From positions 1 to 12,528 of the forward strand of contig VGKN01000019.1 of assembly GCA_016867055.1 (NCBI GenBank): a stretch of 12,528 nt of DNA, in the 5' to 3' direction. Of this stretch, positions 475 through 12,479 are shown one piece after another. This DNA is from Candidatus Omnitrophota bacterium. GTDB lineage: Bacteria; Omnitrophota; Koll11; VGKN01. How positions within the stretch are numbered: position 1 is the stretch's first letter; every line of letters begins with the position of its first letter. The position numbers and the translations under genes were made by a program. The notes under the pieces were generated by a model. It was given only the letters and a program-made list of their open reading frames with translations, made no database searches and was not told the DNA's origin.

Positions 475-1134
475 CTATAAACTTAGGGCTTTCTTAGGAC
501 AGACCACTACACAAAGATTACATTTTAAGCAGTCGCCATCTTTAACTATTTCAATATCGTCTTTCTTGAATTTAAATGGCGCAACCTGAATGGGGCAGGC
601 TTTATAGCAGAGCTGGCATTCGGTGCAGAGTTTAGATTCTATCTTTAAAAGATATTTTCTCCTGCCTACCCAGTTTGCCATTGAGCCAATAGGACAGAAA
701 TAGCACCAAGTGCGCTGATGAAAAAAGAAAGACAGGATAATTCCTATAATCGTCGTGACGCTAAGAAGGATTACGAAAAACATCCCTATTTTATAAGGAT
801 CAGGCCAGCGCTTGATAATCTGTATAGTCATCATAGCCATAAGGAAAGATAGAAAGCCGATTCTAAAAGGTAGCCCTTTAAAAAATTTTGGGATTTCTTT
901 TTTAGGGCTTATGGGTTTTATCAAAGTATCAAAAAAGCTCCCTCTGGGGCAAAACCAGTCACACCATTTTCTGCCTTTAAAGAAACCTATGCCAATACCT
1001 AAAAGCATGCATAGGGGAATAAAATAACCCAAAAGGGGATAGCGCCAGCCTCCAATAATAACTATAAAAAAGGCACTAGCCATAAGAAGCTGCTTAATCC
1101 TTCTTTTTATCTGAAAAACCTTATATTCTGCCAT
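475..1134 (-). CDS. Membrane-bound 4Fe-4S ferredoxin-like protein (NapH/NosR-type polyferredoxin)
   Basis: This 219-residue protein has a hydrophobic N-terminal half with about three or four membrane segments (around 17-50, 90-106 and 116-137). Two short CP motifs lie at the membrane edges, CDWFCP at 58-63 and CYFCP at 144-148. They are followed by two classical 4Fe-4S sites, CTECQLCYKACP (C170, C173, C176, C180) and CLKCNLCVVVCP (C202, C205, C208, C212). This architecture is that of NapH/MauN/NosR-like membrane ferredoxins, which pass electrons between the quinone pool and a periplasmic partner. All cluster cysteines are present, so it should be functional. The ATG has an AAAGGAA site about 10 bases upstream. 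It sits 49 bp after the ArsR-type gene and 12 bp before the DUF2490 gene. No partner reductase is visible, so the electron acceptor is unknown. Confidence 0.88.
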   Translation of the reverse strand: MAEYKVFQIKRRIKQLLMASAFFIVIIGGWRYPLLGYFIPLCMLLGIGIGFFKGRKWCDWFCPRGSFFDTLIKPISPKKEIPKFFKGLPFRIGFLSFLMAMMTIQIIKRWPDPYKIGMFFVILLSVTTIIGIILSFFFHQRTWCYFCPIGSMANWVGRRKYLLKIESKLCTECQLCYKACPIQVAPFKFKKDDIEIVKDGDCLKCNLCVVVCPKKALSL

Positions 1135-1183
1135 ACCGAATATATTCCTTTATTAGAATAGAGTGATATATCCAAGAAAAAAA

Positions 1184-1519
1184 TTATAGCTGCCTAACCT
1201 TGCGGATATCCTGGGACAGCTTTTCTGCCCGGGCTAATTTTTCCAGAAGCATCTCTCTTATGATGTCGAAGGCTTTACTGATTTTAGGATTGGTCAAGGA
1301 ATAATAAATCGTTACACCAGCCCTGCGCGTTTTGACAATACCCTTCTCCCTCATGATACTTAAATGCTGCGAAAGGTTTGCCTGACGAATCTTTGCCATC
1401 CTAGCCAATTCCCCAACAGACAACTCTTTGTTTCGTAAGAGATTTAATATCTCCAGACGTTTTGGTGAGGTAAAAACCTGACACATCTGCGCGTGAAGCT
1501 CATAAAGCTTCTGTTCCAT
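1184..1519 (-). CDS. ArsR/SmtB-family winged-helix repressor
   Basis: This 111-residue protein has the standard ArsR fold order. Helices around SPKRLEILNLL are followed by the recognition motif (SVGELARMAKIRQANLSQHLSIM) and the beta-wing (GIVKTRRAGVTIYYSL). I chose the ATG at 1517-1519 rather than the GTG two codons upstream, because that GTG is itself part of the ribosome site (AAGAGGTG). The usual metal-site CVC of ArsR in helix 3 is replaced by SVG, and the only cysteine is C13, so an arsenic or cadmium sensor of the classical type is unlikely. The ligand is unknown. It is the first gene of a three-gene operon and has its own operator over the promoter, so autoregulation is expected. Confidence 0.9.
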   Translation of the reverse strand: MEQKLYELHAQMCQVFTSPKRLEILNLLRNKELSVGELARMAKIRQANLSQHLSIMREKGIVKTRRAGVTIYYSLTNPKISKAFDIIREMLLEKLARAEKLSQDIRKVRQL

Positions 1520-1535
1520 AATCACCTCTTAATTC

Positions 1536-1618: not shown

Positions 1619-1840
1619 TTATTCCATCCCATTTATCCTCTTCAGAATCTCAAGCACCATCCCTAGCCACTGTAACGTTCGGTCAGCCAAAATTTTTAAT
1701 GAACACTCTTTTTGTCATAACTTATTCTTTCACAAAATATTATGGTGATTTTTTCTCTCTAACAAGGGGCGTCAAAAACTGTAAAACAAAAATTGCTCTT
1801 TTGAATTATCTCGCTGCAAATCAAGTTGTTACATAAAATC
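1619..1840 (-). other. Conserved tail downstream of HTH-1 (tail 1)
   Basis: No standard gene is present between the ArsR promoter and HTH-1, but the sequence is not random. About 170 bases align without any gap to the same region after HTH-3 (8086-8320), at roughly 80% identity by eye. Read on the minus strand it holds an open stretch ending in FLTPLVREKKSP (stop near 1743). Next comes a mini-frame starting ATG at 1716-1718 that reads MTKRVFIKNFG and ends at TGA (1683-1685). From that TGA-C, the +1 frame reads DRTLQWLGMVLEILKRINGM and stops at 1619. The mini-frame has no good ribosome site. It may be a frameshifted small gene, a decayed gene or a structured RNA; see the finding on the three tails. 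Confidence 0.5.
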
Positions 1841-2095
1841 CTAAACATCCCTACTAACATACGGTTCTCTGCTCAATTTTATAGTGTTGCGCCATTTAAT
1901 GATTTTGTCTATGTCAAAAACTGTAAAAACAGGATAGCGTCTATAATCGCGCCAGGGTTTAACCCAGCCTTTCTTAATCCAGTAATATAAAGTTTGTCTT
2001 GGCACATTAAGTATCTTTGCTGTTTGCGATAAGTTGTATCTTTTTAATTTTCTCTTTTCTACCTTGCGGATAATTTTCTTATCCGGCTCATCCAA
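1841..2095 (-). CDS. MerR/HTH_17-like DNA-binding protein, N-terminally truncated (HTH-1)
   Basis: This 84-codon frame has a TTG as its only plausible start. Its core (KRYNLSQTAKILNVPRQTLYYW, then IKKGWVKPWRDYRRYPVFTV) is a MerR/HTH_17-type helix-turn-helix with a wing, nearly identical to that of HTH-3. In-frame homology continues upstream of the TTG (LEKLLNKKKEREEQVNKI) to about 2149, where a TAA codon ends it. The first 45 or so residues present in HTH-2 and HTH-3, including the PYGSEE motif, are gone. A short match to the HTH-3 upstream region (GTGTAAAATGATA) just beyond suggests an internal deletion. No ribosome site is visible. It may be a remnant, or a short protein that still binds DNA. 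Confidence 0.5.
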   Translation of the reverse strand: MDEPDKKIIRKVEKRKLKRYNLSQTAKILNVPRQTLYYWIKKGWVKPWRDYRRYPVFTVFDIDKIIKWRNTIKLSREPYVSRDV

Positions 2096-2197
2096 TATTT
2101 TGTTTACTTGCTCTTCGCGTTCTTTCTTTTTATTAAGTAGCTTCTCTAAGTGTTATTGATTATCATTTTACACTGAGCACAAAATAGTTTATCTTAT

Positions 2198-2237
2198 AAA
2201 AAATTAGCCTGCAACGCGGATTAATCGCTTGCAGGCT
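2198..2237 (-). terminator. Rho-independent terminator of ATPase A
   Basis: On the minus strand, 29 bp after the ATPase A stop codon, a perfect 9-bp stem (AGCCTGCAA pairing with TTGCAGGCT) is extended by three more G-C pairs after a one-base bulge and closes a 7-base loop. It is followed by AATTTTTT. This separates the ATPase A transcript from HTH-1. Confidence 0.85.
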
Positions 2238-2265
2238 GCATTAACTTTATTGGTTATGAAATACG

Positions 2266-3522
2266 CTATTCAAACAAAAGAGGGAGCAGATAGGCATAAT
2301 AATTGGGAACGAATATTACCTTTTTCCCTTGATATATTATTGTTTCCTGCAAGTCATCATTTAAGATTACAACCTTTTTGCATTCAGGGTATTTATGAAT
2401 AAATTTCTTTACTCCTTCTGGAATTTCAGGCACCTGCAACTTCGATTTAACTTCAATCGGGATAGGAATCCTGTCTTGCACTAAAACAAAGTCTACCTCG
2501 TCTTTTTCTCTAGTGCGCCAATAGTAAATTTCCTGACTTACTCGTAAATTCTTCTGTATCTCATGCAAGACAAATGATTCAACGAGTACTCCCTTATCTT
2601 GCCTTTGATTAAGAGACCTAAAATCTCGCAAAATAGCATTACGAATGCCGCTATCAAAATAATATATTTTATTCGTCTGTTTAAGTTCTCTACCTCGATT
2701 AGTAAAGAAAGGTTTAAGAATGTCCAGAAGAAACATCTGGTTCAAAATTGCTAAATCTTTTCTTACCTGCCGTAACGAGTAATTAAGTGCCTGAGAAGTG
2801 CTATTTTCGCTTAAGAACCCTCCTTCTTGAGCTGCTAACAGACTAAGTAATCGATTAAAAGAAAGAATATCTTCCTCTCGCAGAAGTGCTTTAATATCTT
2901 TCTGTACATATGTTACAACGTAATCCAGAAGAAGTCTCTTTTTTGCTTCTATATTCTTCTCGTGCACAAGCCCTGGCATCCCTCCAAAAATAATGAATTC
3001 CTCGAGGTATTTCTTAAATACTCGATGGGCCTGTGAACTAATCCTAGACCGAATATCCCTTGGAAGTTTAATGATTTTAGACTTGCTGGGAAGCCACTCT
3101 AAAAATGACAGTGGGAAAAGTCGATAAAGCCGTCTTCTCCCAGCTAAACTCTCTTTCAGGTGTCGGTGCATTTCAACCGCTGAAGAACCAGTGGCATAGA
3201 CTTTTACCCCCGGTAAACCATCATATATTGCTTTAAAGAGCTTGGTAGCATTGGGTAAATAATGAAATTCATCTATAAGAACAACTCCTTTCCCCTTTTC
3301 AATATCGGTCAGGACATCCTTAAAATCACGCCCAAAATAATGAGCATCCGAAGGCATCTCGAGATTAAAATACCTATACAGATCCTTAGCCTTTCTGTGG
3401 TGAGAAGCTAACTCTTTTAAAAGAGTAGTTTTGCCAACTTGACAGGGACCTATAATAATGCCGATTTCTTTACGTTTAAGGTCACCAACCACATCATTAT
3501 AAATAATTCTTTTTAAACTCAT
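2266..3522 (-). CDS. AAA ATPase with C-terminal DUF4143 domain (ATPase A)
   Basis: This 418-residue protein is of the AAA_14/DUF4143 family. Walker A is GPCQVGKT (25-32), Walker B VVLIDE (80-85), and a sensor region ATGSS lies at 110-114 before the family motif HLKESLAGRR. The C-terminal DUF4143 part keeps the residues expected of a PD-(D/E)XK-like fold: E315 in VLVES, D344 in DEVDF, and E357-V-K359 in PIEVK. Whether it cuts DNA is unknown; many family members are annotated only as ATPases. It is a paralogue of the 6845-8035 protein, with the same motif order. No ribosome site precedes the ATG, and a strong promoter ends only six bases upstream, which points to a leaderless mRNA. A terminator follows the gene, so it forms its own transcription unit. 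Confidence 0.92.
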   Translation of the reverse strand: MSLKRIIYNDVVGDLKRKEIGIIIGPCQVGKTTLLKELASHHRKAKDLYRYFNLEMPSDAHYFGRDFKDVLTDIEKGKGVVLIDEFHYLPNATKLFKAIYDGLPGVKVYATGSSAVEMHRHLKESLAGRRRLYRLFPLSFLEWLPSKSKIIKLPRDIRSRISSQAHRVFKKYLEEFIIFGGMPGLVHEKNIEAKKRLLLDYVVTYVQKDIKALLREEDILSFNRLLSLLAAQEGGFLSENSTSQALNYSLRQVRKDLAILNQMFLLDILKPFFTNRGRELKQTNKIYYFDSGIRNAILRDFRSLNQRQDKGVLVESFVLHEIQKNLRVSQEIYYWRTREKDEVDFVLVQDRIPIPIEVKSKLQVPEIPEGVKKFIHKYPECKKVVILNDDLQETIIYQGKKVIFVPNYYAYLLPLLFE

Positions 3523-3528
3523 ATCGAC

Positions 3529-3557
3529 ATTTTATACGATATCGTATAGATTGTCAA
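3529..3557 (-). promoter_or_regulatory. Leaderless promoter of ATPase A with 16-bp palindromic operator
   Basis: Minus strand: TTGACA (3552-3557), a 17-base spacer, then TAAAAT (3529-3534), with only six bases before the ATG. Transcription should start at or next to the start codon. The perfect palindrome TATACGATATCGTATA (3533-3548) lies inside the spacer and overlaps the -10 box by two bases. A dimeric repressor bound there would block RNA polymerase. The repressor is not identified; the HTH proteins of the island are candidates by context only. Confidence 0.82.
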
Positions 3558-3748
3558 GAGAATTATTTCGCTTGCAATCCTGAAGTAAGCTACCTTCCCA
3601 TCAACACATTTTTATTATTATTCTACCGACTCTCTACAATCTCTATAGAACCAATATAGCCATGAAATGTCAAGTTTTCATGAAAAATCCTTAGATACAT
3701 CATGCAACATTGTTGCACATTATGATACATTGCTTTGATTTCAAAATT
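3558..3748. other. Intergenic stretch between tail 2 and the ATPase A promoter, with palindromes
   Basis: I see no gene here. Two perfect palindromes stand out: TGCAACATTGTTGCA (3703-3717) and TTTTCATGAAAA (3675-3686). Just beyond the second, on the minus strand, is another TTGACA (3668-3673) without a convincing -10 box 17 bases on. GATACAT occurs near-directly on either side of the larger palindrome. These may be operator sites or remains of an older promoter of the same type. Confidence 0.4.
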
Positions 3749-3962
3749 TCAACCAAATTTCGCATAACCCTTTCGCTCCAAATCACTTAACCCCTTTAAA
3801 ATGCCTAAAATCATATCGCGGTACTTACACCAACGGTCATCCCCAACTGCGGATAAAAATTTTCTTTGTATCTTCTTTCATATAAATAAGTTATGGCTTC
3901 GCGGTCAATTGTCTAAAGCTGCACAAGAAGATGAATGATTGTGATTTTAGGTAGCTTTTTAA
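3749..3962 (-). other. Conserved tail downstream of HTH-2 (tail 2)
   Basis: This is the counterpart of tails 1 and 3, more diverged at the DNA level. A mini-frame starting ATG at 3879-3881 reads MKEDTKKIFIRSWG and ends at TGA (3837-3839). The +1 frame from the TGA-C continues as DRWCKYRDMILGILKGLS and runs on to a TGA at 3749-3751. TKK(I/V)FI(R/K) and the following DRW are shared with the other tails although the codons differ. An upstream frame reads ITIIHLLVQL up to a TAG, then DREAITYLYERRYKENFYP. Confidence 0.5.
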
Positions 3963-4355
3963 TTACAATTTTATCGAGTTTTTCCATTTTATCAGATTTT
4001 CAATGTCTAAAACTGTAAAAACTGGATAATTCCTGTAGTCTCGTTTTGGCTTAAGCCAACCTTTTTTAATCCAGTAATATAATGTTTGGCGGTGAACTCC
4101 TAATATCCCTGCTGTCTGTGTCAGGTTATATCTTTTATCTGACCTTTTAATACATTTGCGAAATATCTTTTTGTCGTTTTCGTCAATTTGTTTTTCTAGT
4201 ATCTTTTCTCGCTTTAATTTTTTATCTAGCCGCCTTTCTCGATCTATCTGATACAACTTAAATAGTAAATTAATACCCTGTTCAAATCTCTGCTGCTCTT
4301 CGCTACCATAAGGCCAGACTTTTATTATTTCGCCTTTTCTATTACGAAAAACCAA
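3963..4355 (-). CDS. MerR/HTH_17-like DNA-binding protein (HTH-2), coupled to the primase-helicase
   Basis: The 130-codon frame has an N-terminal region with PYGSEE (16-20), a charged helical stretch (about 37-72) and a C-terminal helix-turn-helix with wing (YNLTQTAGILGVHRQTLYYW then IKKGW, about 76-125). The given start is a TTG at 4353-4355 with no ribosome site. Homology to HTH-3 extends seven codons further, to an ATT at 4374-4376 that overlaps the TAA of the helicase gene and has a perfect AGGAGG four bases upstream, at the position where HTH-3 has its ATG. ATT is a rare but known start codon, so the protein may really be 137 residues and translationally coupled to the helicase. Its likely role is regulator or DNA-targeting subunit of the island. 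It is the most intact of the three paralogues. Confidence 0.78.
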   Translation of the reverse strand: MVFRNRKGEIIKVWPYGSEEQQRFEQGINLLFKLYQIDRERRLDKKLKREKILEKQIDENDKKIFRKCIKRSDKRYNLTQTAGILGVHRQTLYYWIKKGWLKPKRDYRNYPVFTVLDIENLIKWKNSIKL

Positions 4356-4375
4356 ATCTTTTTTAAAATCGTAAA

Positions 4376-6808
4376 TTACGCCTCCTGTTCATCTAGCCCA
4401 TCCAGACTTGTATACCCCATCGTCTTATAAACCTTTAGTCTCTTTTCATACATTCGCCACAATACCGGAATATTTTTATCAATATAGTCATAAATTTTAA
4501 CGTCTCGCTTTCCCTTGCATTCTCGATGCAGCCTTCCTGCGTATTGGATTACTCTTCCTTTAAATGAAATGGGCATGGTAATAAATAATGTGTCTAACTG
4601 TGGAATATCAAATCCTTCTCCAATATAGGAACCTGTGGCTAAAATAGCTTTTGTCTCTCCAGGAAGGATGTGGGATAATTCTTTTAGCAGCTCTTTACGT
4701 CTTTTCTGTTTTGTAGCACCATACAATACAATTAAGTGCTCAACTTTATCCTTGAGCATCTCAGTCAATGTCTTAAGGTGTCCCCTTCTTTCTGTAAGAA
4801 TGATTGGGAATCTGCCCTCATGCAGGGTATTTAGTATATCGCCAATTATTAATTTATTTCTTTCATTATCATTTATTAGTTTTGGCCAAAGGTCGTAAAT
4901 ACTATCTTCACCAGACCGCTCGGTCTTAAATTCAGTTGTTCTTGGAATAGCAATATATTGAGAAATTGGTTGCACAATATCCTTCTGTTTTTTCTGATAA
5001 CAAATCGGACCACATTGCATATGAATGATTGGCTGATGCCCATCACGTCGATAAGGAGTAGCTGTAAGTCCTAAAACATACTTTGCTTTAGCTTTCATCA
5101 GAACCCTCTCAAATGAAACGGCACTCACATGGTGACATTCATCTACAATGACAAAGCCATAGTCGATTATCCTATCATCTACGACGCCTTTTCGTTCCAT
5201 GCTTTGAATCATTGCTACATCCAAAATCCCATTTGATTTATTTTTACCTGCACCTATTTGCCCAATATCCTTTAAATCAACTGCTAATAAAGAGGCTAAT
5301 TGCAACCGCCATTGCTCCATAAGTGGCTTTCTATGAACCAAGATTAAAGTATTTGTTTTTCTTCTGGCAATAGCGTAAATAGCGATAACTGTCTTACCCA
5401 TACCGGGTGGCGCAACTAAAACTCCTATATCATCTCTTAAAACTTTTCTTGCAGCTACTTTTTGCTCCCTGGTCAAAGTACCATAGAATTTGAATTTAAC
5501 CTTCCTACCTGCTATTCGTTCATCTTTAATATTTATTTTAAGGCCATACTCGTTCAGTAAACCAGATAAATCATTTAAACAACCTCGCGGAATCGCAAGA
5601 TAACCATCCAAAATTTCAGAACACGATATAACTCGTGGCGTTAAAAAGGTTGATAAACGCATATTTTGGCGTTTATAAAACTCGGGGTTTTGAAACGCTG
5701 CTAACCGTTTGATTTGATTTAAAAGTACTGATGGCAAACCGTTTGTCTTGATATATATCCTATCAGCGATTACTAATTCGATTTTATCTGGTAGGTCTTT
5801 TATGATAGGTTTATACCTACGCTTACCTGAAGGGAGGCGCATCCAAGGTGGATCATTTTCGTCAATAGGGCTCATTCTAACACCAATAATTTCTTTATTA
5901 CTTGATACTTCTTTTGAAAATCGTTCGATATCCATCAATGACATTCTTTTTATAGAAGACAAAAATATCCATTGATCAATATAAGGATTACCGTTTTCAT
6001 CAATGAAAATACTATTTCCCTGCCGCATTGCCTCTTTTTGAAATGGAAGTGCTATCAAATTGCCAAATCCACCCTTAGGAAGAGTATCTTGGTTGGGAAA
6101 TAGTCTGTCGTAGCTCTTCATACTAAGCTGATACCGCTTGGACATTGTTTTAGTTATCAAAAAACTACCCATGCGTCGCGCTAAGCTAGCCGGAACTTTA
6201 TCTTCAAAGAATATCCAGGTATGCGCTCCTTTACCTGAACGAGAACGCTCAATAGCAATAGGAACTTTTTCCTCCAAACACGTCTTTCTAAAAACAGAAA
6301 TATTATCAATCCAATCTTCTCCATCAAAATCGACTACCAAAAAATAACAGGTTTCATCCTGTAGCATAGGATAAATCCCAATCACATGTCTACCTGTCAA
6401 ATGTTTGCGGATTACTTCATCATCTAAAGGCAATAATTCCCTATTTGGACACCCTGAACACTTCATTATTGGTTTCTGACAAATCTTGGTTACCCATTCA
6501 TTCTTACACATAGGGCTATAACCGCTTTTCCCTGTTTTCCTACTTACCCATAAACGTGCAAAAACATCATCGCGGCCACGAAACAAACTACGAAATAATT
6601 TTATTTGTTGTTCTTCTTGGGAACATTCCAAAATATTGTTTATAGCGGGAGGGTAGATTGAAGAATCTGCTGAAATGATAGGAGATGTTTTCGATGAAGG
6701 AGCCATTTCTTTCTCAATATCATCCAGCTTTTTGAGTAATTGTTCTCTCTCTGTATTCAAAAGAGCGAGTTTTGCCTTTATAAATTTGATTTGTCTCGAT
6801 TTATCCAT
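4376..6808 (-). CDS. TOTE-type archaeo-eukaryotic primase fused to SF2 helicase
   Basis: The domain order of this 810-residue protein is as follows. A coiled coil occupies about 1-36. A cysteine cluster follows (C101, C110, C117, C120), probably zinc-binding. The archaeo-eukaryotic primase domain has the metal motif VVDFDGEDW (D160, D162), the SGKGAHTWIFF motif (H196) and GFGNLIALPF. The SF2 helicase has Walker A APPGMGKT (466-473), DECH (556-559), TATP (582-585), a motif V around GEGFD, and motif VI QYAGRLHR (755-762). All catalytic motifs are intact. This is the architecture annotated as the TOTE conflict system, thought to act on invading or selfish DNA. No nuclease domain is fused here. 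It begins 36 bp after ATPase B without a clear ribosome site, and its stop overlaps the putative ATT start of HTH-2. Confidence 0.93.
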   Translation of the reverse strand: MDKSRQIKFIKAKLALLNTEREQLLKKLDDIEKEMAPSSKTSPIISADSSIYPPAINNILECSQEEQQIKLFRSLFRGRDDVFARLWVSRKTGKSGYSPMCKNEWVTKICQKPIMKCSGCPNRELLPLDDEVIRKHLTGRHVIGIYPMLQDETCYFLVVDFDGEDWIDNISVFRKTCLEEKVPIAIERSRSGKGAHTWIFFEDKVPASLARRMGSFLITKTMSKRYQLSMKSYDRLFPNQDTLPKGGFGNLIALPFQKEAMRQGNSIFIDENGNPYIDQWIFLSSIKRMSLMDIERFSKEVSSNKEIIGVRMSPIDENDPPWMRLPSGKRRYKPIIKDLPDKIELVIADRIYIKTNGLPSVLLNQIKRLAAFQNPEFYKRQNMRLSTFLTPRVISCSEILDGYLAIPRGCLNDLSGLLNEYGLKINIKDERIAGRKVKFKFYGTLTREQKVAARKVLRDDIGVLVAPPGMGKTVIAIYAIARRKTNTLILVHRKPLMEQWRLQLASLLAVDLKDIGQIGAGKNKSNGILDVAMIQSMERKGVVDDRIIDYGFVIVDECHHVSAVSFERVLMKAKAKYVLGLTATPYRRDGHQPIIHMQCGPICYQKKQKDIVQPISQYIAIPRTTEFKTERSGEDSIYDLWPKLINDNERNKLIIGDILNTLHEGRFPIILTERRGHLKTLTEMLKDKVEHLIVLYGATKQKRRKELLKELSHILPGETKAILATGSYIGEGFDIPQLDTLFITMPISFKGRVIQYAGRLHRECKGKRDVKIYDYIDKNIPVLWRMYEKRLKVYKTMGYTSLDGLDEQEA

Positions 6809-6844
6809 TCATTTAAATATTTTTGAAAATGAGATCTACGCCAG

Positions 6845-8035
6845 TTATTCAGGTTGAAAATGTTTAGAAAATTTTTCAAAGGTGAAAAAATGAATCGAGC
6901 AATCCACATGCTTAATTTCTTTTTCTATTTGTTCATTAATAACATAAGCTAATTTGACATCCGGATATCGGTTAAGAAATCTTTTAAGACCTGAAGGGAC
7001 CTCTGGCATAGTCATCTTGCCTTTAACTTCAATGGGAATGGGTTTTCTGTCTTTAAGGAGGATAAAGTCAACTTCCCCACTGTCTTTAGTCCTCCAAAAT
7101 TTAATTTCCATATTAGGTGTAAGCATGGCCTGTAGTCTCAAAAACACAAACGATTCCAAAATAACTCCTTTATCAGGCCGAGAATCAATAGCGGAAAAAT
7201 CTCTCAAAAGCATATTCCTCACACCCAAATCATATAAATAAGTCTTACATGATTTTCTTAATTCATTCCCTAAGTTTTTCGAATAAGTGTAGATGCGGTA
7301 ATTAACGTAAGTCTGTTCAAGAATATCAAAGTAGCGATTGATGGCTTTGGAACTCAAACCCACTTCAGCACTTAGAGAATGCACAGAAATTGTCGACCCC
7401 TGATTCTGAGCTAAAAGGTACAAAAGATGATTGAAGGCGCGGATATTTTCTTCTTTGATGAGAGATTTAATATCTTTTAGAATGTAACTTCCCACAAGCT
7501 CATTTAAAATTTGCTGTTTTCTTTCCCTAGAATCCGTGTGAGTTAAACCTGGCATACCGCCAAAACGCAGATAATCCTCAAATGTAAAATCCGGATAGCT
7601 ATTTTTAATTTCAGCATATTCTAGAGGGTAAATACGGTACAAGAATCTTCTACCAGCCAGACTCTCCTTCAGATGTTTATGAATCTCTAAAGAAGATGAG
7701 CCGGAACAGATAATCTTAATCTTCTTTCTGGAGTCAAAAATAGCTTTTAATATCTTGGAGATATTACGCACATATTGGAATTCATCAATAAAAACAACCT
7801 CTCCTGCTTCGCTTATTATTTGCACAATCTCTTTATCTGGACGGTTAAAATCAGCTAATACCTGAGGTTGCTCTAAATCAAAAAAAGCTACTCTTAGCCC
7901 CTTTTGTCTGGCATAATCTTCTAACATCCTAAGGAGCGTTGTTTTACCGACTTGGCGAGGACCCAGAAGAATAAGGATTTCCGGCTGGATTAATTCTTGT
8001 TGTAACTTATTAAGGATATTACGCTTAATTATCAT
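6845..8035 (-). CDS. AAA ATPase with C-terminal DUF4143 domain (ATPase B)
   Basis: This 396-residue protein is a paralogue of the 2266-3522 protein. Walker A is GPRQVGKT (25-32), Walker B VVFIDE (80-85), the sensor CSGSSS (110-115), followed by HLKESLAGRR. The DUF4143 part has E294, D323 (GEVDF) and E336-V-K338 (PIEVK), matching a PD-(D/E)XK-like site. Walker A here has the usual R where ATPase A has C. The ATG has no ribosome site and lies seven bases after a -10 box, again suggesting a leaderless transcript. The primase-helicase starts 36 bp after its stop and has no promoter of its own that I can see, so this promoter probably drives ATPase B, primase-helicase and HTH-2 together. Confidence 0.92.
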   Translation of the reverse strand: MIIKRNILNKLQQELIQPEILILLGPRQVGKTTLLRMLEDYARQKGLRVAFFDLEQPQVLADFNRPDKEIVQIISEAGEVVFIDEFQYVRNISKILKAIFDSRKKIKIICSGSSSLEIHKHLKESLAGRRFLYRIYPLEYAEIKNSYPDFTFEDYLRFGGMPGLTHTDSRERKQQILNELVGSYILKDIKSLIKEENIRAFNHLLYLLAQNQGSTISVHSLSAEVGLSSKAINRYFDILEQTYVNYRIYTYSKNLGNELRKSCKTYLYDLGVRNMLLRDFSAIDSRPDKGVILESFVFLRLQAMLTPNMEIKFWRTKDSGEVDFILLKDRKPIPIEVKGKMTMPEVPSGLKRFLNRYPDVKLAYVINEQIEKEIKHVDCSIHFFTFEKFSKHFQPE

Positions 8036-8042
8036 ATTGACA

Positions 8043-8071
8043 AATATAACCTATTAGGTCAAAAAAGTCAA
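8043..8071 (-). promoter_or_regulatory. Leaderless promoter of ATPase B with palindromic operator
   Basis: Minus strand: TTGACT (8066-8071), a 17-base spacer, then TATATT (8043-8048), and seven bases to the ATG. A palindrome ACCTATTAGGT (8049-8059, plus-strand reading, single central base) lies in the spacer directly against the -10 box. The layout copies that of ATPase A, but the palindrome sequence is different, so the two genes may answer to different repressors. Confidence 0.78.
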
Positions 8072-8085
8072 GAAAATTTTTCTTC

Positions 8086-8320
8086 CTAATCTAATCTTAA
8101 AATAGCCTCTGCTATCCTCTCCATAGTCCGTCTTTGCCACATCCATCGGTCAGCCCAGAGTCCTTATAAATACCTTTTTTGTCATAACTTATTATTTAAC
8201 AGAATATTATGGCGATTTTTTCTATCTAATAAGGGGTGTAAAAAACTGTAAAACGGAAAATGCTTTTTTAATTTATCTCTTTGCAATTTAAGGTATTACA
8301 AAAAATTATCGTCATCCCTA
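8086..8320 (-). other. Conserved tail downstream of HTH-3 (tail 3)
   Basis: This is the counterpart of tail 1 and aligns to it with no gap over about 170 bases. On the minus strand a stretch reads AFSVLQFFTPLIR up to a TAG. The mini-frame from the ATG at 8183-8185 reads MTKKVFIRTLG and ends at TGA (8150-8152). The +1 frame from TGA-C continues as DRWMWQRRTMERIAEAILRL to a stop at 8086-8088. Between tails 1 and 3 the mini-frame differs mostly at third codon positions (GTG/GTA, TTC/TTT, ATT/ATA). Confidence 0.5.
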
Positions 8321-8617
8321 CTAACATACGGTTTCCTTGCACAATTCTATTGTATTACGCCATTTAATGATTTTCTGTATGTCAAAAACTGTAAAAACAG
8401 GATACCGTCTATAATCGCGCCAGGGTTTAACCCATCCCTTCTTCATCCAGTAATATAAAGTTTGTCTTGGGACATTAAGTATCTTTGCTGCTTGCGAGAG
8501 ATTATATCTTTTAAGTCTCCTCTTTTCTGCCTTGTGGATGATTCTTCTATCTGCTTCATCTAATATTGTATTTACTTGTTCATTGTGTTCTTTCTTTTTA
8601 TTGAGTAATTCCTCTAA
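8086..8617 (-). repeat. Direct repeat, right copy (tail plus HTH-3)
   Basis: Partner of the repeat at 1619-2149, same orientation, about 6.5 kb apart. Together they bracket ATPase A, HTH-2, the primase-helicase and ATPase B. The extra HTH sequence beyond 8617 is absent from the left copy. Confidence 0.75.
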
Positions 8618-8753
8618 TTTTTTCCTGCTTGCTTCAGTTAATATCTCTAATACTTGTTCGTATCTTAACCATTCTTCGCTGCCATAAGGAAAAACCTTGA
8701 TAGCCTTGCCTGTTGTGTTACCTTTAACCCGGCACTTTTTTAAAATTGCCCAT
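8321..8753 (-). pseudogene. MerR/HTH_17-like gene with frameshift in an A6 run (HTH-3)
   Basis: The ATG at 8751-8753 has a perfect GGAGG four bases upstream, but its frame reads only MGNFKKVPG before a TAA. If one A is removed from the six-A run (8736-8741 on the plus strand), the frame continues as MGNFKKCRVKGNTTGKAIKV, then FPYGSEEW, a charged helix and an intact helix-turn-helix (LSQAAKILNVPRQTLYYW), stopping at 8321. The corrected product is about 140 residues and aligns along its whole length with HTH-2. It could be a true frameshift mutation, an assembly error at a homopolymer, or expression by slippage on the A run. The C-terminus ends earlier than in HTH-1 because of a one-base difference near the stop. 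Confidence 0.75.
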
Positions 8754-9079: not shown

Positions 9080-9829
9080 CTACTTAAGCTGCTTTTTAAA
9101 TTGCCCCCAAGGAAAATTACGACCCGGGCATTCTGTCTTTGCTCCGCGTACTTGACCGTGACCTAAAATATTCCTCACGGGAATACGATACTGTCTCTTT
9201 AAGAGATTAACCAAATATACCAGAGAGCCCATTTGTTTATCCGAAAGTCTTTCTTTATTAAAGTTGCCAACAAGACAGATGCCAATTGCTCTCTCATTCA
9301 TATCGCCTGCTTTACAATGCGAGCCGTTCTCCTGTTTTAACCACCGAGGAGAAACTTCAATCTGGCCATCCTGTTTTTCTTTTGTGCCGTTATCAATTAC
9401 AAAATGATAGCCTATCCCCTCCCATCCTTTGCCTTGATGAAACTTATCAAAGTCCAAGGAACTGCCTTCATCAGTTGCGCTGTGATGAATAACAATGTAT
9501 TTCCATTTCTTAGAAGGATACAAAGGGATAACCGGCACAATTGGCGCAGCATTAGGAATTAAAAGACGCTGACCTTTCTCTAAAGTTTCTGTCTTTAAAT
9601 TATTCGCGAATGATAGATCCTTTATAGGGACATCATACATTTTACTAATTCGCCAGAGCGTCTCTCCGGGAGCTACTACATGAAAAACATCCTGTCTTAA
9701 AACAGAGGGGGCTAACGCAGGATATATTTCTTTAATAGGCATGGTGGGGGGTTTGACAGGTGTGGTGGCGCAGGAACTCAAAATAATCGCTAAGCCTGCA
9801 ATTAATACTAAATAAATTAGCCTTTTCAT
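9080..9829 (-). CDS. LysM-domain N-acetylmuramoyl-L-alanine amidase (amidase_2), lipoprotein
   Basis: This 249-residue protein starts at the ATG at 9827-9829, which overlaps the znuB stop as ATGA, so the two are translationally coupled. The longer TTG-started frame would add ten residues before the signal peptide and is rejected. Residues 1-20 are a lipoprotein signal (MKRLIYLVLIAGLAIILSSC) with the lipidated cysteine at C20. One LysM domain (about 49-93, FHVVAPGETLWRISKMYDVP) binds peptidoglycan. The C-terminal amidase_2/PGRP fold starts with YIVIHHSATD. The zinc ligands by family analogy are H115, H224 and C234, with Y141 as likely catalytic tyrosine. It should cleave the bond between N-acetylmuramic acid and L-alanine, acting at the cell wall from a membrane anchor. 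Its place in a zinc-import operon is unusual. Confidence 0.9.
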   Translation of the reverse strand: MKRLIYLVLIAGLAIILSSCATTPVKPPTMPIKEIYPALAPSVLRQDVFHVVAPGETLWRISKMYDVPIKDLSFANNLKTETLEKGQRLLIPNAAPIVPVIPLYPSKKWKYIVIHHSATDEGSSLDFDKFHQGKGWEGIGYHFVIDNGTKEKQDGQIEVSPRWLKQENGSHCKAGDMNERAIGICLVGNFNKERLSDKQMGSLVYLVNLLKRQYRIPVRNILGHGQVRGAKTECPGRNFPWGQFKKQLK

Positions 9830-10635
9830 TTCTTTGTTATAAGTAATTTTACTCCCCAAAAAAGCAAAAAGAGTAAACTATATAACACTACAATCATAGG
9901 GCTGGATGGTAGATCCCACAAATAAGAAAAACTTATCCCCAAGATAACACATAATACCGCAACCAAACAAGAAACAGCAAATATTACCGGGGTCCGCTTA
10001 ACAAAAACTAAAGCTGTTAGCGCCGGTATAACCAACGATGCAAATACAAATACTATTCCGCATATCTTCATAGATAAACTAATCACAATGCCGATGGTTA
10101 AATAAAGTAAGAAATCTAAAAGGTTTGCCTTCAACCCGCAGGTTAAAGCGGTTTCCCTATCAAAAGAAACAAAAATAAACTCTTTAAAGAACAAGGCATG
10201 TAAAGTTACAATTAAGACAGACACCATTCCTAAAATATTTATATCAGCCCAACTCGTATAAAGTAAATTCCCAGAAATAAGATTAAGTCCCCTTGATTCG
10301 GCAAGAGGATTTTTGGCAATTAAAATGATGGCTGTCGCAGCGCAAAAGGCATAAGTAAATCCTAAAAAAGCTTCTCTGGAGATATTGCGTTCAGTAAAAG
10401 GAAACCAAAATAAGATTATACCTACAAGAGTCAACAAAAATGCGGTCAGTTCTGGGTTTACTCCCACAAAAAGACCTAACGCTACACCCAATGCTGCCAC
10501 TTGAGATAATGCTATCCCTACAAAAACAATCCTTTTTAATATGACAAATACTCCTAGGTAAGCACAAAGACAGGCAGTTATTAAGCCGCCTAAGAGGGCT
10601 GTTTGCACAAAGGGCTCTTTAAAGATTTCTAACAT
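9826..10635 (-). CDS. znuB: Zinc ABC transporter permease, ZnuB family
   Basis: This 269-residue polytopic membrane protein of the ABC-3 family has about eight hydrophobic segments. It shows the family's N-terminal pattern (QTALLGGLITACLCAYLGVF, then VILKR) and the later cytoplasmic-loop region (FDRETALTCGLKANLLDFLLY) that contacts the ATPase. It forms the membrane channel for metal delivered by the binding protein. The ATG has an AAGGA site eight bases upstream that originally lay right at the znuC stop. A 52-bp repeat now separates them. Its stop overlaps the start of the amidase gene. Confidence 0.93.
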   Translation of the reverse strand: MLEIFKEPFVQTALLGGLITACLCAYLGVFVILKRIVFVGIALSQVAALGVALGLFVGVNPELTAFLLTLVGIILFWFPFTERNISREAFLGFTYAFCAATAIILIAKNPLAESRGLNLISGNLLYTSWADINILGMVSVLIVTLHALFFKEFIFVSFDRETALTCGLKANLLDFLLYLTIGIVISLSMKICGIVFVFASLVIPALTALVFVKRTPVIFAVSCLVAVLCVILGISFSYLWDLPSSPMIVVLYSLLFLLFWGVKLLITKK

Positions 10636-10649
10636 TGGGGAATTCCTTT

Positions 10650-10701
10650 ACCCCGCCCTTTCTTAAGTCAAAGAGATTCTTTAGGGAAGAAAGGGCGGGG
10701 T
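10650..10701. repeat. 52-bp palindromic repeat, copy 1 (znuC/znuB junction)
   Basis: Terminal inverted arms of 14 bp (ACCCCGCCCTTTCT and AGAAAGGGCGGGGT) enclose a 24-bp centre containing AGAGATTCTT on the plus strand. The element is flanked by TT on both sides, which would fit a 2-bp target duplication. It begins directly after the znuC TAA. Removing it restores a tight znuC-znuB junction in which the TAA runs into the AAAGGAA ribosome site of znuB. It could form a strong hairpin in the operon mRNA. Confidence 0.88.
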
Positions 10702-11490
10702 TTAGAGAACTATCTTTCTTCCACCAATCTCTTTCAAATTTATTTGTGTTTCAAAAATTTCAGAAAGAAGTCCTTCGTTTAATTCGTCTCTTTCGAAGAT
10801 CTTATAAGGCGCCTTCTTATTCACCCCGCCCTTTCTCTGTTCAAGAATCTCTCCTCTGCAAGAAAGGGCGGGGTTCAAAAACATAAACTTCTGGGCATAG
10901 TTGATAACCTCATTCAATTCATGGGTTACTAAAGCTATGGTTAAATGCCCATCTTTATGTAACATTCTTATTAATTCTAATATTTCCCGCTCTGCTTTAA
11001 CATCTAAGTCAGTGGTTGGCTCATCAAGGATTAAAAAATTAGGCTCAAGTGCAAGGGCTCTGGCGATAATGGTGCGTTGCTTCTGACCGCCGGAGAGATT
11101 ATAAAAGCGTTCTCTAGATAACCCCCTAATGCCAGTGATATCTAAGACCTCTAAAACTTTTTGCTTATCTATGCTGCTTGGTTTTCGTAAATACCCAATG
11201 ACTTTAGTCCGCGCCATCATCACAATTTCAAAAACAGTAAAGGGAAAGAGGGTATCAATAAACTGCCTCTGCATGCAGTAGCCAAAGCGCAAGTTTTTGT
11301 CCTTTATAACCTGTCCCGCTTGCGGCTTTAACAGCCCAATTATGCTGCGTAAGAGTGCGGTCTTGCCAGAGCCGTTCGGCCCAATGATTCCCAAGAAATC
11401 TCCTTCAAATATATCAAGGTTTAAGGAGTCGAATACCGCTAATCTGCCATAGCCCAGTTTAGCATTTTTAAATTCAACGAGCTTTTTCAT
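10702..11490 (-). CDS. znuC: Zinc ABC transporter ATPase, ZnuC family, with repeat-encoded insertion
   Basis: This is a 262-residue ABC ATPase. Walker A is GPNGSGKT (37-44), the Q-loop region CMQRQF lies at 72-77, the signature LSGGQ at 132-136, Walker B LILDEP at 153-158, and the switch histidine is H190 (VTHELNEV). It powers metal import through ZnuB. The ATG overlaps the znuA stop as ATGA. Residues 206-223 (NPALSCRGEILEQRKGGV) are encoded by an in-frame 52-bp palindromic repeat plus two bases. Without them the chain reads smoothly from FMFLN to KKAPYKIF. The insertion lies after all catalytic motifs, near the C-terminus, so activity may survive. Confidence 0.93.
   Translation of the reverse strand: MKKLVEFKNAKLGYGRLAVFDSLNLDIFEGDFLGIIGPNGSGKTALLRSIIGLLKPQAGQVIKDKNLRFGYCMQRQFIDTLFPFTVFEIVMMARTKVIGYLRKPSSIDKQKVLEVLDITGIRGLSRERFYNLSGGQKQRTIIARALALEPNFLILDEPTTDLDVKAEREILELIRMLHKDGHLTIALVTHELNEVINYAQKFMFLNPALSCRGEILEQRKGGVNKKAPYKIFERDELNEGLLSEIFETQINLKEIGGRKIVL
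10823..10874. repeat. 52-bp palindromic repeat, copy 2 (inside znuC)
   Basis: It has the same 14-bp arms as the copy at 10650-10701 and the same 24-bp centre length, with the shared core AAGAATCTCT in the opposite orientation. The flanks are TC on both sides, again fitting a 2-bp target duplication. Then 52 + 2 = 54 bp, a multiple of three, which explains why znuC stays in frame. The element resembles in behaviour the protein-coding palindromic elements known from Rickettsia, but the sequence is not one I recognise. Confidence 0.9.
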
Positions 11491-12407
11491 CCTTCCAAGC
11501 CTTTCGCCAATTTATCTACAATTGTATCTATGAGGTCAAAGTAATCTTTTGCCTCTTTTGTGCCGCCAACTGAATTAGGCACAATTCCCACTTTAGCGCC
11601 TGTCTGTTCAGCAACGAACCTTGCTGGTTTCTCATCGTAAAAAACCTCCATCAGGATTACCTTGATATTCTGTTGCTTTATTGTATGGATAACTTCTTTT
11701 AAATGGCCTGGCGAAGGCGGTATCCCTGGTTTTGGCTCAAGTTCACAGGCAACTTCTAAGCCAAATCTATTAGCAAAGTAAGACCAACTGCGATGATAGA
11801 TAGCAATCTTTTGCCCTTTAAAAGGAGCGAGTTTTGCTTTCCATTCAATCATCTTTTCGTCTATTTTCTTATTAAATTTAATAAGATTATTATTAAAAAA
11901 AGATGCATTTTGTGGTGATAGTTGCGACAGTCTTTCTGCAATATTACCTGCGATTATCTTGGCATTCAAAGGATCAAGCCAGTAATGGGGATTGCCATAA
12001 GGATGAACGTGTCCCATCGAGGCATTAACTTTTCCTAAAAGGACATCTAATTTCTCAATGCCCATCGAAGCATCTAAATATCCCAATCTTCCATAACTAA
12101 TTTTAGGGTTCCGAGAGGCATCGATTAAAGCCTGCACCCATATATCTAAGTCCATCCCGATTAAAATAAGTAAATCTACATCTTTTAACTTCATCACCAT
12201 TGAAGGACGCACTTCTATAAAATGAGGGTCTTGTGTTCCTTTAGAAAGGCTATTCACTTGTATCCTATCCTTGCCGATTTCTTTTGCTATTGAGGCTAAA
12301 TCAGAAGTGGTAGTAACGATTTTTATCATTTCCTCTGCTCTTAGGGGTAAAGGCGAGACCAAAAAAAGAATCACCAGGCTAAAAATTAAAAAAACTCTTG
12401 TCTTCAT
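11487..12407 (-). CDS. znuA: Zinc ABC transporter substrate-binding protein, ZnuA family
   Basis: This 306-residue protein starts at the ATG at 12405-12407, which has a GAGGA site eight bases upstream and opens a Sec signal peptide (KTRVFLIFSLVILFLVSPLPLRA). The GTG start 19 codons upstream is rejected because it lies across a hairpin and spoils the signal peptide. Candidate metal ligands are H62 (DPHFIEVRP), H141 (NPHYWLDP), H205 (IYHRSWSYF) and an acidic residue near 254-259 (EVFYDE). A histidine at the third position is typical of zinc-type proteins, where manganese-type ones have glutamate. The His-rich loop is short (GHVHPYGNPH). It captures zinc in the periplasm and hands it to ZnuB. 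Confidence 0.93.
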   Translation of the reverse strand: MKTRVFLIFSLVILFLVSPLPLRAEEMIKIVTTTSDLASIAKEIGKDRIQVNSLSKGTQDPHFIEVRPSMVMKLKDVDLLILIGMDLDIWVQALIDASRNPKISYGRLGYLDASMGIEKLDVLLGKVNASMGHVHPYGNPHYWLDPLNAKIIAGNIAERLSQLSPQNASFFNNNLIKFNKKIDEKMIEWKAKLAPFKGQKIAIYHRSWSYFANRFGLEVACELEPKPGIPPSPGHLKEVIHTIKQQNIKVILMEVFYDEKPARFVAEQTGAKVGIVPNSVGGTKEAKDYFDLIDTIVDKLAKGLEG

Positions 12408-12432
12408 TTTGATTTTCCTCCCACAGTCTTTT

Positions 12433-12460
12433 AGAGGGGTGGAATTTATACCACCCCTCT
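12433..12460. repeat. Perfect hairpin in the znuA upstream region
   Basis: The 10-bp arms AGAGGGGTGG and CCACCCCTCT close an 8-base loop AATTTATA. It lies 25 bp upstream of the znuA start. No T-tract follows on the minus strand (AAAAG comes next), so it is not a standard terminator of an upstream gene. It could be a leader hairpin, a small palindromic repeat, or hide a -10-like TATAAA in its loop. I found no Zur-type 9-1-9 palindrome here. Confidence 0.6.
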
Positions 12461-12479
12461 TCACCGATAACCGTTCTTC

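Follow-up and report, generated by a model that had tools for sequence, protein, structure and literature searches.

The 12,528-nt stretch of contig VGKN01000019.1 from a Candidatus Omnitrophota bacterium (assembly GCA_016867055.1), here called the window, is very probably part of an array of cassettes inserted by a large serine recombinase (LSR) at a single point in the 5' end of the tRNA-modification gene miaB. The target point lies between the Gly and Cys codons of the miaB start, ...T-[LFYW]-G-C-Q-M-N. Judged from its sequence, the window appears to hold two whole cassettes, neither with an LSR, and repeated helix-turn-helix (HTH) genes appear to mark the cassette joints. Cassette 1 (8150 to 3838) comprises ATPase B, a primase-helicase and HTH2, and cassette 2 (3837 to 1684) comprises ATPase A and HTH3. 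Comparison with related genomes supports this reading: the conserved tail present at each joint also occurs at the 3' ends of LSR genes, other LSRs of the same family end inside miaB, and some arrays end in an intact miaB.

Behind each HTH gene of the window lies a miaB 5' end of 11-14 codons (the stub), joined at an identical base to a conserved tail of ~65 bp, so that the joint takes the form [miaB 5' end ... GGN TG] followed by [RCCG.. tail]. The miaB start seen behind HTH genes reads ...KKVFIRTLGCQMN.DSE; stubs are cut after GGN TG and mostly continue RCCG[AT].., as do all three window copies. We collected 40 distinct stub-tail joints, three of them in the window; the stubs are very diverse, and some have an HTH gene ahead of them while others do not. 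It should be noted that the joint pattern misses the variants TGACGA (loci L099 and L202) and TGAACG (L220), so that these 40 joints, and the 24 closed intervals described below, are lower bounds that depend on the loci retrieved. A nucleotide model built from the 37 joints outside the window found exactly three sites within it (E values given with the stubs below; next best E 0.87), whilst the best value in 100 mononucleotide-shuffled windows was E 2.5. The window joints are therefore not chance matches. The main open reading frames (ORFs) of the window all lie on the minus strand, in the 5' to 3' order LysM amidase, HTH1, ATPase B, primase-helicase, HTH2, ATPase A, HTH3, ArsR-type regulator and 4Fe-4S protein. 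The features are as follows.

8321..8753, minus strand: HTH1, long MerR-like HTH gene; Shine-Dalgarno sequence (SD) and ATG (8753-8751) one frame off the HTH frame
8151..8185, minus strand: miaB 5' stub 1 (MTKKVFIRTLG, then the junction), left half of joint 1; joint model E 1.3e-11
8086..8150, minus strand: tail 1, conserved right half-site; LSR-frame translation RWMWQRRTMERIAEAILRLD, then stop
6845..8035, minus strand: ATPase B, AAA_14 and DUF4143 with a PD-(D/E)XK-like motif, cargo of cassette 1; domain and motif search
4376..6808, minus strand: TOTE-type archaeo-eukaryotic primase with SF2 (XPB/RadD-like) helicase, cargo of cassette 1; domain and motif search
3963..4376, minus strand: HTH2, long MerR-like HTH gene that closes cassette 1 on its miaB-proximal side; start ATT or TTG 4355
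3838..3881, minus strand: miaB 5' stub 2 (MKEDTKKIFIRSWG, then the junction), left half of joint 2; joint model E 1.9e-17
3749..3837, minus strand: tail 2; LSR-frame translation RWCKYRDMILGILKGLSDLERKGYAKFG, then stop
2266..3522, minus strand: ATPase A, AAA_14 and DUF4143, cargo of cassette 2; domain and motif search
1841..2149, minus strand: HTH3, 5'-truncated copy of the long HTH gene; sequence comparison
1684..1718, minus strand: miaB 5' stub 3 (MTKRVFIKNFG, then the junction), left half of joint 3; joint model E 2.5e-13
1619..1683, minus strand: tail 3; LSR-frame translation RTLQWLGMVLEILKRINGME, then stop
475..1525, minus strand: ArsR-type regulator and 4Fe-4S membrane protein, immediately following joint 3; ORFs and domain search
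9080-9859, minus strand: amidase with LysM; ORF list and domain search

The initial annotation of this stretch had described three HTH genes in repeating modules. The repeat is real and larger than was proposed, as it takes in non-coding DNA, the miaB stub and the tail; the genes themselves are less regular, since HTH1 starts off-frame, HTH2 has no ATG and HTH3 is a 5'-truncated fragment. Over an alignment of 474 bases that takes in non-coding DNA behind the HTH gene, the copies at 1679-2149 and 8146-8617 show 83% identity, a similarity that tandem duplication or homologous recombination between HTH-miaB copies could also produce without any site-specific recombination, and one related locus (L009) does contain two near-identical Fic-HTH units in tandem. 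We consider this explanation very improbable, because the joints are base-identical in many genomes despite their differing stubs and cargo, and because the tail is found at LSR gene ends. Homologous exchange between the repeats may occur in addition. Decayed miaB operons were ruled out as the source of the HTH-miaB stubs, since the joints fall on exactly the same base and have the tail of the LSR attached.

Serine recombinases were first searched for in 37 genomes carrying the HTH gene or the tail, where several adjoin HTH matches. Three LSRs were read: those of L099 and L100 terminate in the tail, and that of L101 continues into miaB. All three are LSRs by their domains (PF00239 Resolvase N-domain, PF07508 Recombinase and PF13408 zinc ribbon). 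A profile built from them (E <= 1e-100) matched 31 of 285 genomes in our Omnitrophota sample, with 34 matches that represent 33 genes, all of which were examined. Twenty-nine of the 33 run into miaB (27 of the 30 profile-match loci, G286 and the second gene of G102), one runs into mtaB, and the last three (L113, L121 and L202) have the tail, or a variant tail, at their end. The tail also forms the LSR C-terminus in L099 and, by eye, occurs as a remnant in L220. The TGA stop of the LSR gene falls at the same base of GGNTGYCARATGAA in 24 of 30 loci, which means that the LSR frame overlaps the first miaB codons in another frame. The gene downstream is miaB: of five full-length proteins, four score above the MiaB equivalog cut-off, and that of L101, whose 347 bits fall just short of the required 355, still has MiaB as its best equivalog. 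Reading onward into miaB at 25 LSR loci, up to a limit of 300 codons, showed a frame open throughout in 23. None of six less related LSRs from the same genomes (L081, L082, L083, L085, L087 and L103) lies at miaB; two of the six match a loose tail pattern behind non-miaB sequence.

The single target point also bears on whether an ordinary transposon or insertion sequence carrying the HTH gene inserts into miaB-like sequence. IS3-like ORFs were seen by eye in one cassette (L004), and the HTH protein has weak matches to transposase and excisionase families; against this, the target is a single point at which 30 of the 33 LSR genes end, the other three ending in the tail, and a transposon seems to us extremely improbable. 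Tyrosine recombinases were present in 36 of the 37 genomes, as expected for Xer. One of the LSRs (L206) matches the phage integrase family phrog_95, and 726 records of named phages match one LSR, all below 60% identity and, among the matches listed, at 29-33% at best. No paper on serine recombinases at miaB was found in the open PMC literature. The one LSR gene of the 33 that runs into mtaB (L120; G265:C14, 1495-4373) does so at the equivalent Gly-Cys codons. The downstream protein is MtaB (397 bits against a cut-off of 357), so that one member of the LSR family has a different target, the miaB paralogue mtaB.

These observations suggest a model in which attP, at the 3' end of the LSR gene, would recombine with attB in miaB, with strand exchange at TG. 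The tail would be the right half-site brought by the element, and the left half-site would be miaB itself, carried again at the other end of the element. Insertion would thereby rebuild miaB with the carried 5' end and leave the old 5' end behind as a stub. Cassettes that lack an LSR, those of the window included, would be moved by an LSR acting in trans, and their cargo may be retained because it benefits the host; mobility of the cassettes is itself something that we infer. In many elements with an LSR the HTH gene stands beside it, whilst in LSR-less ones the HTH gene occupies the miaB-proximal end; its product may control the direction of recombination or expression.

A short HTH gene of this family lies directly before the LSR at 19 of 33 genes and within 3 kb at 25 of 33. 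In 29 of 31 HTH copies, miaB or its cut-off first codons were found by eye within ~330 bases downstream. Structure prediction (pLDDT 85, pTM 0.41) gives the protein a short hairpin, a helix of 50 residues and a winged HTH of the MerR type; among solved folds it comes closest to RacA and to DNA-binding domains of the MerR type (one match at E <= 0.001), whilst the HTH profile had no sequence match in the PDB. A candidate role for the HTH protein is that of a recombination directionality factor, which would switch the LSR from integration to excision; the features observed are its LSR neighbourhood and its RacA/MerR-like predicted fold. A motif resembling ACAGTTTT..ACAC was seen by eye to recur between HTH and miaB or its stub, in the window (8321-8185 and 1841-1718) and in relatives, and may be a promoter or an HTH operator.

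The long HTH genes share a peculiar start. An SD-ATG out of frame with the HTH was found in 24 of 31 distinct long HTH starts; 23 of these share one +1 frame, and A6-A8 usually separates the SD-ATG from the HTH frame. In 18 of the 24, the HTH frame offers no start codon (ATG, GTG or TTG) ahead of the conserved block. An in-frame SD-ATG occurred in none of the 31, and in the remaining seven no SD-ATG was recognised, three of these (L009, L043 and L018) having an in-frame ATG. The out-of-frame starts look like the trace of a programmed +1 frameshift or of slippage. HTH1 belongs to this type and would require a +1 shift at TTTTAAAAAAG; HTH2 does not, and opens either at an ATT that overlaps the primase-helicase stop or at TTG 4355. 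The first 15 codons of a long HTH gene read SD-ATG...TTTTAAAAAAGG, and the conserved out-of-frame start ATGAACGGTTTTAAAAAAGG is present in the window (8753-8700) and in L001, L002, L004, L008, L013, L024 and others.

The initial annotation had placed the HTH genes in one defence system together with the primase-helicase and the DUF4143 ATPases, in which the HTH repeats would be regulatory modules. The arrangement it relied on was confirmed: an intact primase-helicase lies between two paralogous AAA-DUF4143 ATPases, with a 36-bp gap to ATPase B and contact with HTH2, and this common strand with short gaps would suit a single system. So would the matches of the PADLOC models PDC-S01 to the ATPases and PrimPol to the primase, and the finding that a DUF4143 ATPase adjoins the primase-helicase in four of 16 close loci. 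The HTH gene does not share this association. A tblastn search (E <= 1e-4) found neither the window primase-helicase nor its ATPases in any of 31 HTH loci from named genomes (3.7-20 kb each, several on short contigs), and no HTH gene was found at any of the 16 close primase-helicase loci. The HTH gene instead goes with the LSR and with miaB or its stub, in the proportions given above. As far as the HTH genes are concerned the single-system explanation is largely refuted by this non-recurrence, and as a whole we judge it improbable.

The two remaining partners fared differently, as the trio does not recur in the loci compared whilst the pair of ATPase and primase-helicase does. The primase family gave 20 matches in 18 of 285 genomes of the phylum sample; 18 of the 20 were retrieved, 16 close relatives and two distant ones. 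The four loci with an adjoining ATPase (L162, L186, L187 and L190, in G001, G110, G187 and G139) look enriched against the 1-2% estimated for one copy within 1.5 kb. This gives some support to the proposal that the ATPases belong to the primase-helicase system, although DUF4143 genes turn up in many genomes (174 of 285) and both kinds of gene may simply share islands. We regard the DUF4143 ATPase and the TOTE primase-helicase as a candidate two-gene unit. AbiE-like pairs were seen by eye near at least four further primase-helicase loci (L179, L182, L185 and L189).

The primase-helicase is an 810-aa protein in which an AEP-TOTE primase domain (PF22548, 328 bits) is fused to an SF2 helicase (ResIII, 81 bits; Helicase_C also matched), with intact motifs DFDGED, GKGAHTW, APPGMGKT, DECHH, LTATP and QYAGRLHR, and it therefore belongs to the TOTE family. 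Among solved structures compared by sequence, the helicase part is nearest to XPB and the primase part to 7nqd, which is labelled a TPR-region protein and which we take to be a CRISPR-associated primase-polymerase; the NCBIfam model PrimPol_Msp matches the primase part below its cut-off. ATPases A and B are 41% identical, and both belong to the AAA_14-DUF4143 family (PADLOC candidate PDC-S01), with both domains, Walker A and Walker B motifs and the PD-(D/E)XK-like EVDF...IEVK. The sole match of ATPase B in the PDB was the P-loop of RecA. TOTE primase-helicases are named as conflict systems and regarded as a defence against selfish DNA; for the present protein such a role is putative, suggested by the family name and by the defence-type cargo of other cassettes. 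From sequence alone, the cargo of the window most likely serves defence, with the primase-helicase acting on invading DNA and the ATPase-nuclease as its partner. Nothing unusual was found in the primase-helicase protein itself; it is its place in a cassette that differs from the known family and is the new part of this case.

In related Omnitrophota, arrays reach five stubs and some terminate in an intact miaB. The 24 closed intervals (12 from joint to joint and 12 from joint to miaB) measure between 476 bases and 14.6 kb; eight hold an ORF that matches the HTH model, and one holds an LSR. G118:C21 (L110) has three stubs, an intact miaB and then miaA, hflX, hrcA, grpE, dnaK and dnaJ (names assigned by eye). 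G152:C16 (L108) has five stubs, with a single DUF4143 ATPase between two joints. In G167:C14 (L220), two stubs precede the LSR-miaB junction, in the order stub and tail with an in-frame LSR remnant (by eye), an interval with HamB, and an element that ends LSR-miaB and carries cyclase, E2 and phospholipase genes identified by PADLOC. Presumably these three are CBASS parts. In G096 (L206), a chloride-channel cassette is followed by a 14.6-kb element that ends in an LSR overlapping miaB and contains a terminase small subunit, an internal virion protein and a replication initiator. G242 has a second TOTE primase-helicase, accompanied by a DinG-like helicase, in the stretch from one joint to another.

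The view of the locus as a mobile island with defence-type cargo finds support in its company: cassettes of the same kind carry AbiEi/AbiEii, Fic, RhuM-Fic, HamB (Hachiman) and CBASS-type cyclase, E2 and phospholipase genes. Further cargo includes nucleotidyltransferases, TrkH/TrkA, CrcB, cation efflux proteins, a methyltransferase and a carbamoyltransferase. The intervals contain 62 sense ORFs of at least 100 aa (HTH and LSR excluded), of which 30 were chosen by hand for Pfam comparison, eight remaining unmatched at 1e-5. Defence and toxin-antitoxin genes are frequent without being the sole cargo, and their frequency is a plain count rather than a measure of enrichment.

Several observations weigh against the reading of the window as part of an LSR-built array. 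Neither an LSR nor an intact miaB lies within the window, so the end of the array is out of view. The HTH copy of L011 and the partial copy of L012 have no miaB or stub behind them, and the miaB frame closes after 59 codons in L119 and 12 in L126. The tail is joined to non-miaB sequence in L107 (G167:C9, ~8.7 kb) and L109 (G095:C85, ~5.25 kb), which are possibly secondary integration sites. Among IMG/VR contigs, a close relative of the LSR could not be confirmed. A primase-helicase lies between joints in only one of the 16 close loci of the phylum sample (that of G242), and many cassettes carry transporters or uncharacterised genes. Finally, conservation of the tail is not codon-periodic (p 0.29, 25 common-type tails), which makes its coding role in the LSR uncertain and fits a DNA half-site; the left arms of the joints do vary in a codon-like manner (third-position difference 0.64 vs 0.30 and 0.27), and both patterns are those to be expected of a left arm maintained as miaB and of a tail maintained as a binding site. 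The tail as a selected protein C-terminus was set aside after this test, and we treat it mainly as a DNA site.

In viral contigs, no HTH relative was confirmed, no exact common-type tail was found, and the primase-helicase matched two distant helicases only. Partial matches at L222, L227, L214 and L099 have stub-like left arms on other right halves (GGCTGACCCTTGGT... and GGATGGCCTTATGC...) that recur between loci and are perhaps further tail families of other LSRs. Within the window, the ArsR-type regulator and 4Fe-4S membrane protein (475..1525) are probably cargo of the next cassette, the end of which would lie outside. Zinc/manganese-type ABC transporter genes lie upstream of HTH1 (9826-12464). 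No Rfam family or tRNA gene was detected in the window. The closest named relatives are Omnitrophota metagenome-assembled genomes (HTH2, P0026, 74%; primase-helicase, P0121, 89%).

The proposed arrays combine features of several known systems. The integrases of dusA islands are of the tyrosine type. Such islands and prophages enter a tRNA-modification gene at its 5' end, replace that end with a carried one and leave the old remnant behind; PMC4482086, which describes them, places their integrases in a tree with IntI and XerDC and names the MiaB-like gene rimO as a mobile-element target. The replacement of a tRNA-modification gene 5' end is common to both, here with LSR genes running into miaB or mtaB and stubs lying upstream in arrays; the dusA islands differ in their tyrosine integrase and in dusA, as here a serine recombinase acts at miaB and small LSR-less cassettes form arrays. 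Staphylococcal and enterococcal cassette chromosome (SCC) elements use CcrAB or CcrC at the 3' end of rlmH. They share with the present arrays serine recombinases, a single site in a conserved RNA-modification gene and tandem cassettes, some without a recombinase. They differ in Ccr and the rlmH 3' end, the present system having one LSR whose own gene end would hold the site, at the miaB 5' end.

Suicidal integrases of the SSV type carry the recombination site within the integrase gene; they are tyrosine recombinases, cut in two by integration and described as exclusively archaeal (PMC8371274). The likeness would lie in a site inside the integrase gene, so that integration alters the gene: the LSR genes of L099, L100/L113, L121 and L202 end in the tail, itself not codon-periodic. 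The difference is that in the bacterial serine recombinase the exchange would be confined to the final ~20 codons, with the catalytic part retained. Integrons combine the tyrosine recombinase IntI with attC sites and form arrays of small cassettes. The resemblance is in arrays of small cassettes with varied cargo, each with its own recombination site; here the linked enzyme is a serine recombinase rather than IntI (no search for attC was made) and the cassettes carry a host-gene 5' end.

Taken together, we propose, with the balance of evidence in our view evenly poised, that Omnitrophota and their neighbours carry an integron-like capture platform based on a serine recombinase. The LSR 3' end would have three functions at once: it would encode part of the integrase, form a half-site of attP and, read in another frame, provide a spare 5' end for miaB. 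An LSR supplied in trans would line up LSR-less cassettes of 0.5 to several kb, many with defence genes, in miaB (once in mtaB), and direction or timing would be set by a MerR-like protein whose synthesis involves a conserved +1 frameshift. If this is true, a serine integrase with attP and a spare target start in its own gene end represents a new way into an important gene without breakage, and if the LSR-less cassettes move in trans, a second, serine-recombinase route to integron-like arrays exists. Such an integrase would also supply new attP/attB pairs to test, and the miaB stub-tail joint is a base-exact signature for cataloguing cassettes, cargo and recombinases in any genome. For this little-studied bacterial phylum, the arrays would provide a mechanism for the gathering and turnover of defence genes.

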